The translations under genes were made by a program, and so were the position numbers. From contig NZ_CP023396.1 in assembly GCF_008808095.1 (NCBI RefSeq), positions 2,621,501 through 2,685,500 of the forward strand: a DNA stretch of 64,000 nt, written 5' to 3'. The stretch is from Pseudoalteromonas ruthenica. GTDB taxonomy: Bacteria; Pseudomonadota; Gammaproteobacteria; Enterobacterales; Alteromonadaceae. Every line of letters starts with the position of its first letter. The first letter of the stretch is position 1. The notes under the pieces were generated by a model. It had not been told where the DNA came from and searched no databases. It worked only from the letters and a program-made list of their open reading frames with translations. Below, piece after piece: positions 39,821 to 43,549 of this stretch.

Positions 39821-41140
39821 CTAATTTTGTACGTGTTCTAGTGCTGGGACTAACCAACTTGGTTCAAAGGCGAACCAAAAACAAGAGCCTTTACCGACGA
39901 CACTGTCGATATGCAGGTGTGAGTCGTGACGCGACAACACATGTTTAGTAATAGCTAGGCCGAGGCCCGAGCCCCCCGTTTTCCGACTTCGCGCTTTATC
40001 CACTCGATAAAAGCGCTCGGTTAAACGGTTGATATGTTCAGGCGCGATGCCCTCACCATTATCGGTCACGCTAAAGACCGCTTGACCGTCTTGACGATAC
40101 CAACGCACCGTAATTTCTCCCTCATCGGGGGTGTAGTGCACAGCATTAAATACCAGGTTTGAAAACGCGCTGCGTAACTCATCAGCAGCGCCAACGATAT
40201 CTAAGCTGGTATCGACATCAAAATACAGGCGGTGGCCTTTATCTTGATTCAACGATGTCGCTTCTGTTTCGATAACTTCCAACATTTTCGGCACATTGAC
40301 TGGTTTATCATTGTCGTGTTTGCGTGCTCCTTCAATTCGCGACAGCGACAACAACTGATTGACCAAGCTATCCATTCGCTGACACTGCTCAATCATCGTG
40401 CCATGGGCTTTATCCCACATCGCTGGCGGTGGTAAGTTGTCGCCATCAAGCATCTCTAAGTAGCCGGTAACCACAGTTAAAGGTGTACGCAGCTCATGTG
40501 ATACGTTGGCAACAAAGTCTTTACGCATCTGCTCCAATTGCTTAAGGCGAGTAATATCACGGACCACCATCATGATCTGTGATTGTGCATAGGGCATCAC
40601 CCGAAATTCCAACACTTGTTCACCGGTGTGGGTTAAATCAAGCTCAAGGGCATCGTTGAATTGGTGCTGCTGCATATAGCGGCTAAATTTGGGGTGTCGA
40701 ATAAGGTTATCTATACGCTGACCATGATCAGTGGGCCACTGCAAGCCCAATAACCGCAGCGCTAATTGGTTACACCAGACGATGCTGAAGTCCTGTTGCA
40801 GCACAATCACAGCATCAGGTACGGCTTCGGCCCCCTCGCGGAAACGACGGATCAAGTCAGCCAGCTCATTGCGCTTTTTACGGTTGCGTTGTTGGAGCTG
40901 GTAAATTCCCTCGAAAACTTGCTCCCAAGCCCCTTCTCCCTCCGGCGGATTAAAGCTACGTTGGTTAATAAGCCAATCACTAAGGCGGTAAAGCTGGCGA
41001 TAATGCCACAGTAACAATGTGATAGCGCCCAAAAATAGAAGCAAAAAAGGCGCGCCTACTAGCACGCCTATCAACAATAAAGGCAGGAAAAAGATAACTA
41101 AACGCTTGGTAAGTGTGCGTTTATTAACCACTCGGTACAT
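39821..41140 (-). CDS. phoR: Phosphate regulon sensor kinase PhoR
   Basis: 439 residues. Two N-terminal spans (about 12-29 and 31-46) with almost no periplasmic loop, as in PhoR; PAS domain (about 105-195); DHp with His215 in FVANVSHELRTPL; HATPase_c with NLVFNAVHYTP, DNGEGIA and GSGLGLAI. Follows phoB by 65 bases. Phosphorylates PhoB on phosphate limitation, normally under control of the PstSCAB-PhoU complex. Confidence 0.96.
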   Translation of the reverse strand: MYRVVNKRTLTKRLVIFFLPLLLIGVLVGAPFLLLFLGAITLLLWHYRQLYRLSDWLINQRSFNPPEGEGAWEQVFEGIYQLQQRNRKKRNELADLIRRFREGAEAVPDAVIVLQQDFSIVWCNQLALRLLGLQWPTDHGQRIDNLIRHPKFSRYMQQHQFNDALELDLTHTGEQVLEFRVMPYAQSQIMMVVRDITRLKQLEQMRKDFVANVSHELRTPLTVVTGYLEMLDGDNLPPPAMWDKAHGTMIEQCQRMDSLVNQLLSLSRIEGARKHDNDKPVNVPKMLEVIETEATSLNQDKGHRLYFDVDTSLDIVGAADELRSAFSNLVFNAVHYTPDEGEITVRWYRQDGQAVFSVTDNGEGIAPEHINRLTERFYRVDKARSRKTGGSGLGLAITKHVLSRHDSHLHIDSVVGKGSCFWFAFEPSWLVPALEHVQN

Positions 41141-41205
41141 AGACTCGCTCTACTTAAAACAATGTGTCATCGGCTTGATGCCGATGCAATGAGCAATAAA
41201 GATAG

Positions 41206-41895
41206 TTATACCTTGCTAGAAAAACGATAACCAGCACCACGCACAGTTTGTACTAAACGATCATGTCCCATGGGAGCAATTGCTTTACGCAGGCGACGAA
41301 TATGCACATCAACGGTGCGATCCTCAACGTAAACATTGGTTCCCCATACATGATCCAGTAGCTGCTCACGACTATATACTCGCTCAGGGTGGGTCATAAA
41401 AAAGTGTAGCAAACGAAATTCGGTAGGCCCCATATCCAACTCGCTGCCATCGGATGTCACACGATGAGAAATAGGGTCTAAACGCAAGCCGTGCACTTCG
41501 ATAGCCTCTTCAAGTGATGTCGGCGCCACACGGCGAATAACGGCTTTAATACGTGCCATTAATTCTTTCGGAGAGAATGGCTTAGTCACATAATCGTCAG
41601 CCCCCACTTCCAGGCCTTTCACTTTGTCTTCTTCTTCACCTCGGGCGGTGAGCATAATAATGGGAATTGCGCGGGTATGATCGTTTTGTTTAAATTTCTT
41701 CGCAATCTGAATACCGCTGCCTCCGGGCAACATCCAATCCAGTAATACCATATCTGGGTAGGGCTCTACCATGGCTGCTATGGCAGAGTCGTAATCCTCA
41801 GCTTCGATGGCTTGAAAACCATTCTGTTCTAAAACAAACACCAGCATTTCGCGGATGGGCGCTTCATCATCGACCACAAGAACTTTACGTGACAT
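41206..41895 (-). CDS. phoB: Phosphate regulon response regulator PhoB
   Basis: 229 residues: receiver with DD at residues 9-10, phospho-acceptor Asp53 (LLDWMLPG) and Lys in [10 protein letters not shown]; OmpR-type winged helix (about 130-227), with [14 protein letters not shown] as recognition helix. First gene of phoBR. Its own Pho box lies 61 bases upstream of the ATG. Confidence 0.97.
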
Positions 41896-41955
41896 TCCGT
41901 TTATCTCTTTCGCTTTATTGAACTGAATTTACTGATGTCATTATTATGACTTTTT

Positions 41956-41973
41956 GTGACAATTTTATGAAAG
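41956..41973 (-). promoter_or_regulatory. Pho box upstream of phoB
   Basis: Minus strand CTTTCAT-AAAA-TTGTCAC, two half sites with an AT-rich 4-base spacer, matching the CTGTCAT-N4-CTGTCAT plan. Implies autoregulation of phoBR. Confidence 0.8.
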
Positions 41974-42012
41974 CGTACACCTTCAATGGAAATGCTGCAA
42001 AATTAAACTTGG

Positions 42013-42310
42013 GATCAAGACGTTAGGGGCCTTAAAAGCAAGGATCATAGTCTTACCAACTGAGCCGTTACAAGATCAGATTTATACCAAGCTGGCTATC
42101 AGTGGATCAGAGTTTTACCCATTGATCTGCCCTGAGATCACACTCTTACCAAGTGATGTTCTTTATGTGTATAAATCTCGCTCAAACCTTGTTTAAATAT
42201 CAACCACATATAGTTTCATCGCCTGAGCAGCGCGTAAGAACGTGATCCCATAATCAGTGCAGTTGATAAAAATCTGATCCCACTATGATCCACTCAGTAA
42301 AATAGTGATC
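42013..42310. repeat. Phased GATC array: opposed 31-base repeats
   Basis: Ten GATC sites start at 42013, 42043, 42074, 42105, 42124, 42136, 42244, 42276, 42287 and 42307. Eight head units of about 31 bases; seven begin with (or nearly with) GATCANNNTYTTAC. Units at 42013-42166 point right; three units ending at 42247, 42279 and 42310 carry the same motif on the minus strand, so they point left, toward the centre. One unit in each block has an extra GATC 19-20 bases in. The centre (42167-42216) holds a DnaA box. It fills the gap between phoB and fba and has no ORF. Confidence 0.9.
42166..42174 (-). promoter_or_regulatory. DnaA box in the centre of the GATC array
   Basis: TGTGTATAA, whose complement TTATACACA is a perfect TTATNCACA DnaA box. 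Alone it could be chance; inside the GATC array it is notable. Confidence 0.6.
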
Positions 42311-42313
42311 CAT

Positions 42314-42337
42314 AAAAAAGCCCCGCTTATGCGAGGC
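42314..42337 (-). terminator. Terminator of fba
   Basis: Minus strand GCCTCGC-ATAA-GCGGGGC (two G-T pairs) followed by TTTTTT. Confidence 0.85.
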
Positions 42338-42358
42338 TCATTCAAGTCGTGAACGCGA

Positions 42359-43423
42359 CTATTTTATTTTTGCATCCAGTTCGCCGTTCAAGTAACGAAG
42401 GTGCATATCATCTAACGAGATAGGCTTAATCTTGTCGGCCTGGCCTGCTGTGCCAAAAGCTTGATAACGATCAACACAAATTTCCGTCATCGCTTTCGTT
42501 GCCTCCGCTAGGTATTTACGCGGATCAAAATTCGCGGTGTTGTGCGCGAGGTGGCGACGAATAGCCCCTGTTGCAGCTAAACGTAGGTCGGTATCGATAT
42601 TCACCTTACGTACACCATGCTTGATGCCTTCAACAATCTGATCAACAGGCACACCATAGGTCTCTGGGATCTCACCACCGTACTCATTGATAATCGCTAA
42701 CCACTCTTGTGGGACGGATGATGAGCCGTGCATAACCAAGTGAGTGTTAGGGATACGGGCGTGAATTTCCTTGATACGATCGATAGCAAGAATGTCCCCT
42801 GTTGGTGGGCGGGTGAACTTATAAGCTCCATGTGACGTGCCACAAGCAATAGCCAACGCATCGACATTGGTTTTAGCAACGAAATCCGCTGCTTCTTCTG
42901 GGTCAGTAAGCAGTTGATCTTGTGTCAGCTTGCCTTCGGCGCCGATACCGTCTTCCTCACCTGCTTCTCCGGTCTCTAGAGAGCCAAGTACGCCCAGCTC
43001 ACCTTCTACCGATACACCACCAGCATGAGCCATTTCTACGGTACGACGGGTTACATCAACATTGTACTCATAAGATGAAGGCGTTTTACCATCTTCAAGT
43101 AATGAGCCATCCATCATGACCGATGAAAAGCCAAGCTGGATAGAGCGCTGGCACACGCCAGGAGACGTACCATGATCTTGGTGCATAACCACTGGGATAT
43201 GAGGCCACTCCTCTACCGCAGCAAGGATCATATGGCGAATGAATGGGGCACCTGCATATTTACGTGCACCAGCTGAGCCTTGCACAATCACTGGGCTGTT
43301 TGTTTTATCAGCCGCTTCCATGATGGCACGCATTTGCTCTTGGTTATTAACGTTAAAGGCTGGCACGCCATAACCATTTTCTGCTGCATGGTCGAGTAGT
43401 TGACGCATACTGATCAAAGCCAT
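42359..43423 (-). CDS. fba: Class II fructose-bisphosphate aldolase
   Basis: 354 residues from ATG 43423 (GGAGA eight bases before). Zinc-dependent aldolase of the Calvin-cycle subtype (CbbA-like): VVMHQDHG (catalytic Asp and zinc His), [16 protein letters not shown], and [11 protein letters not shown] near the C-terminus. Third gene of epd-pgk-fba, separated from pgk by a hairpin-rich 138-base gap. Confidence 0.96.
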
Positions 43424-43481
43424 TTCGCTTATCTCCAATTTTTGATAGCACCGAGACTATCTGGTTTTTGAACGGGATGAA

Positions 43482-43549
43482 GCTTGGTTTCCCCAAGCAA
43501 GGGCTTAATGCCCAAAACACAAGGCCGGCAAAGTGAGAGAGGCCGGCCT
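43482..43549 (-). other. Cluster of three stem-loops between pgk and fba
   Basis: GCTTGG/CCAAGC (43482-43498), GGGC/GCCC (43501-43513) and AGGCCGGC/GCCGGCCT (43522-43549). The largest is G+C-rich and lacks a following T tract on the minus strand, so it may attenuate or protect the mRNA rather than end it. Confidence 0.5.

Follow-up and report, generated by a model that had tools for sequence, protein, structure and literature searches.

What is a dense, regularly spaced cluster of GATC sites doing in the short gap between fba and phoB of Pseudoalteromonas ruthenica? In the 64,000-nucleotide stretch of DNA that we analysed (the window), the 463 bases separating the two genes hold ten GATC, all within 298 bases (42013..42310), as against 0.73 expected at the rate of the whole window (157 in 64,000). 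At most four GATC were found in any other 298-base stretch of the window (starts outside 41601-42400), and shuffling the dinucleotides of the gap 2000 times gave a mean of 2.1 and a maximum of 8. The excess over chance reported by the initial annotation is therefore real, and so is the geometry it described: eight of the ten GATC, at exactly the starts it had given, fall in units of about 31 bases arranged in two opposed blocks, five units on the plus strand and three on the minus strand. The other two (42124..42127 and 42287..42290) lie outside the phased units.

Five of the eight units match the motif GATCANNNTYTTAC exactly, two carry one mismatch and one is degenerate. In the left block, unit 1 (42013..42026) is the degenerate one, with its GATC in phase and three mismatches to GATCANNNTYTTAC; it is followed by unit 2 (42043..42056, exact), unit 3 (42074..42087, one mismatch) and units 4 and 5 (42105..42118 and 42136..42149, both exact). 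In the right block, units 6 (42234..42247, GATC at 42244) and 8 (42297..42310, GATC at 42307) are exact and unit 7 (42266..42279, GATC at 42276) has one mismatch. We regard the whole, 42013..42310, as two opposed blocks of chromid-type iterons and as a candidate chromid replication-triggering site. A tRNA-like or other RNA element, which the left units bring to mind by eye, was rejected: the window is without tRNA, and Rfam, searched over 41000-43500, yielded nothing up to E 1.

A lack of conservation in every related genome was one of the outcomes that the initial annotation had named as counting against it. Instead, a converging array downstream of fba was present in 99 of the 99 genus genomes sampled, with 3-8 sites each (mean 5.4), while of 297 dinucleotide-shuffled regions (three for each genome) 276 scored 0, 21 scored 1 and none scored higher. 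At least two sites (with at most one mismatch) lie within 2 kb of the fba 3′ end in 95 genomes, at a median array-fba distance of 81 bases (range 9-1542, n = 95); in the other four (G016, G081, G084 and G088) the array sits just beyond 2 kb. The gene for class II fructose-bisphosphate aldolase (fba by NCBIfam; 42359..43438, minus strand) is thus a constant neighbour. This constancy does not extend to phoB (also assigned by NCBIfam; 41206..41895, minus strand), a usual neighbour that was found within 2 kb of the fba 3′ end in 90 of the 99 genomes. In those 90, the phoB-to-array distance varied from 118 to 1545 bases, and the two can be separated by an ORF that, by eye, resembles a porin gene. 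A stretch of some 40 bases ahead of phoB (41938-41977), which we take to be Pho-box-like, recurs in many genomes of the genus as a block separate from the array. The variable distance, the intervening ORF and this conserved block at the phoB promoter all speak against the proposed phase switch for phoB.

The spacer between the blocks (42150..42233) is poorly conserved. When we aligned the 63 of 99 genomes whose gap is 95-122 bases long and inspected the alignment as a consensus plus 24 rows, no conserved element beyond the iterons was apparent between the blocks. The DnaA box suggested for the centre does exist in this genome, as the match TGTGTATAA on the minus strand at 42166-42174, but it is not conserved: an exact TTATNCACA occurs between the blocks in only 2 of 99 genomes, this one included, so that DnaA finds no support as a general feature of the array.

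Exact pairs of the motif at a spacing of 31 bases, the search that the initial annotation had recommended, occurred somewhere in the genome in 56 of the 99 genus members. An order-wide sample yielded three such genomes among 295, two of them in the genus, hence 1/293 outside it; all of our genus, order and family sets are samples of the available genomes. Among 22 outgroup genomes searched in the same family, 8 had Fba at E 1e-100, and none of the fba flanks of these eight RepA-less relatives contained an array; three of the eight loci held one match each over their whole length. As the eight flanks have no phoB nearby, they constitute a limited control.

The motif is shared with the second replicon. 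This two-replicon Pseudoalteromonas genome consists of two contigs, chromosome 1 (3,269,379 bases) and the chromid (848,326 bases), on which GATCANNNTYTTAC has 8 and 19 exact matches, respectively, 27 in all; a reversed-pattern control had none. Five of the eight matches on chromosome 1 belong to the array, which is the only cluster there, the other three being lone. Six of the chromid copies sit at ori2, directly upstream of repA. In five of the six other complete genomes listed, too, the array is the only place on chromosome 1 with at least two exact matches within 1 kb, and the sixth (G113) has one exact match at the array. This chromosome-wide search covered 23 genomes; G008, G021, G063 and G103, of the timing set described below, were outside it. 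Lone matches are common in some genomes, as in G022 (13, versus 9 for the reversed control).

The consensus of the chromosome-1 array sites (n = 532) is RGATCANNNTTTTACTAAC, and that of the ori2 sites (n = 304, from repA-flank loci) is nearly the same, with A favoured over G before GATC. The ori2 set comes from 48 of the 98 RepA-bearing genomes and comprises all sites in the loci, possibly including a few inside repA. The two sets, compared at bases that had played no part in site selection, showed a correlation of 0.90 over positions +14..+20 and of 0.77 over all unselected positions. The array and ori2 carry the same 18-base word. Given this shared word and the copies beside repA at the chromid end, the repeat is presumably the iteron of the chromid origin. 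The array is thus built of repeated copies of a word present at its cognate origin, in line with the annotated iteron-like array and replication-linked control site. The ori2 of this genome (L031:9990-10170) also contains four exact DnaA-box matches, TGTGNATAA, all on one strand.

The RepA candidate of this genome is an ORF of 423 aa next to the chromid-end iterons. A gene 99.8% identical to it is annotated as replication protein A on the 801-kb replicon of Pseudoalteromonas sp. THAF3, where it adjoins a replication-terminus protein gene, and close relatives in named genomes amounted to 74 loci, 73 from Pseudoalteromonas and one from a MAG. On the strength of these matches, we take the 423-aa protein as the RepA of the work on the P. 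spongiae and P. tunicata chromids, whose replication requires RepA and ori2 according to the available text of PMC7858055.

RepA was detected in 98 of the 99 genus genomes, Fba in all 99. The exception for RepA, G001 (L172), is a single 3.6-Mb contig with the array present and no RepA match; perhaps the chromid is absent from the deposited record, or the strain has lost it. Searches of Pfam, NCBIfam and PDB gave no convincing sequence match for RepA: Rep3_N was matched weakly by 2 of 31 members (E 0.0054), and a match to a plectin chain (E 0.0087) was taken as chance. At E 1e-15 RepA was found in 1 of the 293 order-sample genomes outside the genus, at 28% identity. A protein search retrieved relatives at about 46-50% identity in Shewanella and Rheinheimera, and 1246 plasmid records match RepA at under 60%, so the protein has kin beyond the genus. 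The rep region of one Pseudoalteromonas plasmid (L328), whose RepA is 49% identical to that of the chromid, is without the iteron; with one plasmid checked, this suggests that the word may be specific to the lineage of the chromid.

Within the word, GATC is the most conserved part in the chromosome-1 arrays. Among array sites with one mismatch, the mismatch fell within GATC in 1 of 304 cases (about 111 if evenly distributed), compared with 23 of 164 at ori2. This stricter constraint on chromosome 1 suggests that methylation contributes to the function. The repeats are also helically phased: the spacings within blocks (n = 334, of which 225 are 30-32) have a period of 10.45 bases (R 0.90), and the 30 distinct spacing values, taken once each, have a best period of 10.55 (R 0.82), equalled in 0 of 5000 random sets. 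As in SeqA targets, at least two GATC lie within about three helical turns of each other, and the genome encodes SeqA (PF03925 match, C1:980460). An involvement of Dam and SeqA at the array is therefore plausible from the sequence.

The position of the array was examined by a comparison modelled on a published test in the Vibrionaceae, in which, according to the available text, the offset agrees with the delay observed for V. cholerae (PMC5854411); the V. cholerae crtS delay is given as about 200 kb (PMC6090056, available text). Measured from oriC towards the terminus, the array is found at about 0.3-0.45 of the distance. In all 28 complete genomes of the timing set, the array-to-terminus distance exceeded the longest chromid arm, by 64-551 kb; for the 7 of them that lacked a usable dif2 match, the length of the entire chromid served as an upper-bound arm. 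The 21 genomes with a dif2-like match gave an excess of 144-551 kb (mean 285), and in 14 of these 21 the match lies within about 20 kb of ori2. In G002 and G081, which have 1.6-Mb chromids with the dif2-like match opposite ori2, the excess was 197 and 198 kb. The position of the array would thus leave room for the chromid and chromosome 1 to end together.

For these measurements ori1 was set at dnaA, and ter1 at a dif1-like match in 7 of the 28 genomes and at half the length of chromosome 1 in the remaining 21. The dif-like matches used were those near the expected place with a perfect XerD arm, and the rest, among them an off-centre one in this genome, were ignored. Genomes whose chromosome 1 is split, such as G020, were kept out of the set, as was G001, whose record has no chromid. 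The array-to-terminus distance correlated with the chromid arm (0.71 for the 21 genomes, 0.89 for the 28), but the partial correlation given chromosome length was 0.33 (p 0.14) and 0.53 (p 0.004), respectively, all of these statistics ignoring relatedness. Since the value for the 21 genomes falls to 0.33, the fit in part reflects genome size. In the present genome, one dif-like match on chromosome 1 (G000:C1:1135128-1135152) is off-centre, far from the point opposite oriC, and could represent a dif1 that has moved, an integrated element or a chance match; if it were the real dif1, the excess for this genome would rise from 194 to about 694 kb.

The timing of second-chromosome replication has an established mechanism in few models, Vibrio cholerae first among them. 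The array resembles the crtS of the Vibrionales in that it is short and non-coding, lies on the main chromosome well away from ori1 and is conserved across the group (here in 99/99 genomes, intergenic and downstream of fba), and possibly also in its remaining distance to ter1, which would accommodate a chromid arm plus a delay (144-551 kb, 21 genomes). It differs in its initiator, which is RctB in the Vibrionales and would here be RepA, a protein without a significant profile match to any PDB chain. Structures of RctB are present in the PDB. The construction is different as well: the array is assembled from the GATC iterons of the chromid origin itself, whereas V. cholerae crtS is not homologous to the RctB 12-mers and 39-mers (PMC6090056, available text) and is bound independently of methylation, to judge from the title of a cited reference. 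With another initiator and an iteron-based build, the array may work like crtS without being a member of crtS.

These lines of evidence make it probable, in our judgment, that the array provides RepA with a site on chromosome 1 and serves as a trigger that times chromid replication, a functional analogue of crtS that arose independently. Both the binding of RepA and the triggering, as opposed to titration, are inferred. In such a scheme RepA would bind the array as long as Dam keeps the GATCs there fully methylated; the chromosome-1 fork, on passing, would displace RepA and leave the sites hemimethylated, perhaps held by SeqA; the hemimethylated array would release or remodel RepA, as a reservoir emptied by the fork; and the array, re-formed in two copies, would license the firing of ori2 so that both replicons finish together. 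More tentatively, since we give the full version rather less than even chances, the array could form a second, independently evolved inter-chromosome checkpoint, in which a methylation-gated RepA reservoir sheds a pulse at fork passage that fires the chromid origin. If so, the signal would be the origin's own word, unlike crtS, and Dam methylation would serve as the memory that the array had just been copied.

The strongest rival holds that the array titrates RepA, as datA would, or acts as a handcuffing site, restraining chromid initiation and setting copy number. It owes this rank to the iterons outside the V. cholerae origin, which inhibit ori2 (PMC3937223 and PMC6090056, available texts); because these external iterons titrate RctB and crtS is unlike iterons, a site built from origin-type iterons, such as the array, could titrate. 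Several Pseudoalteromonas chromids, moreover, carry distal iteron clusters that could do so. Yet with clusters already on the chromids, a genus-wide, mid-replichore site on the other replicon would not be needed, and the opposed two-block layout, found in 99/99 genomes, suggests more than a decoy. We consider this explanation unlikely, while still according it appreciable weight. A RepA-mediated pairing of the array with ori2 or with clusters on the chromid, serving chiefly to tether the two replicons or position them for segregation, seems to us distinctly improbable: phased, converging sites would suit a bridged complex, and crtS contacts ori2 in V. cholerae (available texts of PMC6090056 and PMC13342612), but timing alone accounts for the position relative to ter1.

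The two remaining explanations appear very improbable. A locus for Dam and SeqA alone, independent of RepA, in which clustered hemimethylated GATCs would hold SeqA at about three turns, would agree with the density and spacing of the GATCs, with the presence of seqA and with GATC being the best-kept part of the word; SeqA, however, would not be expected to need the TTTTACTAAC tail that is common to ori2, nor would a SeqA site be expected to be nearly restricted to the genus with this RepA. Hardly any greater or smaller credence is due to the idea that the array is left over from an integrated origin, of a chromid or a plasmid, or to a regulatory switch for phoB. The resemblance to ori2 and the presence of phoB within 2 kb in 90/99 genomes would favour these readings, but the two opposed blocks persist in 99/99 genomes, no rep gene is found among the ORFs listed at 38-46.5 kb, and the distance to phoB varies while fba is a median of 81 bases away.

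Other known systems offer partial parallels to a RepA-dependent timing trigger. Like the RctB iterons (11/12-mers) of V. cholerae ori2, the units have GATC within the repeat and a regular, helical-scale spacing (PMC6090056, available text); the word here is longer (18 bases), with another tail and another initiator. The external RctB sites of V. cholerae chrII and datA of E. coli are likewise initiator sites outside an origin, but they are close to the origin and on its own replicon (PMC3937223, available text) and the array is on the other replicon. Plasmid RepA/RepB initiators are related in sequence, at about 49% identity for the Pseudoalteromonas plasmid RepA and about 27% for RepB-annotated proteins of other plasmids; the one rep region checked (L328) lacks the motif.

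In 2021, both Pseudoalteromonas replicons were found to terminate in synchrony and a crtS-like trigger on chromosome 1 was suggested, nothing similar to Vibrio crtS having turned up when the main chromosome was searched (PMC7858055, available text). The array is the best candidate for that trigger. The term crtS is absent from the main text of PMC12053903, and the available text of a 2026 survey names the discovery of such timers in additional systems as a task still to be done (PMC13342612). Among the papers listed in our searches of an open-access collection, none reported the array. A named locus of about 300 bases carrying the origin's own repeat makes the timing question directly testable by deletion or relocation; if the array is indeed a trigger, the same logic of control evolved twice, each time around a different initiator.

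The chromids themselves contain further clusters of the same iteron, with up to 12 sites, at distances from ori2 of roughly 9-62 kb. These clusters recall the titration locus of V. cholerae, which is 40 kb away from ori2. They were located on the chromid (C2) of this genome (L029:9207-9956 and L030:5847-8589), where they lie partly over short ORFs, and on other chromids (L244:10061-10858, L246:9281-10088 and L248:9626-10285), those of L246 and L248 being mostly intergenic. In G113, an iteron group is found about 126 kb from ori2.
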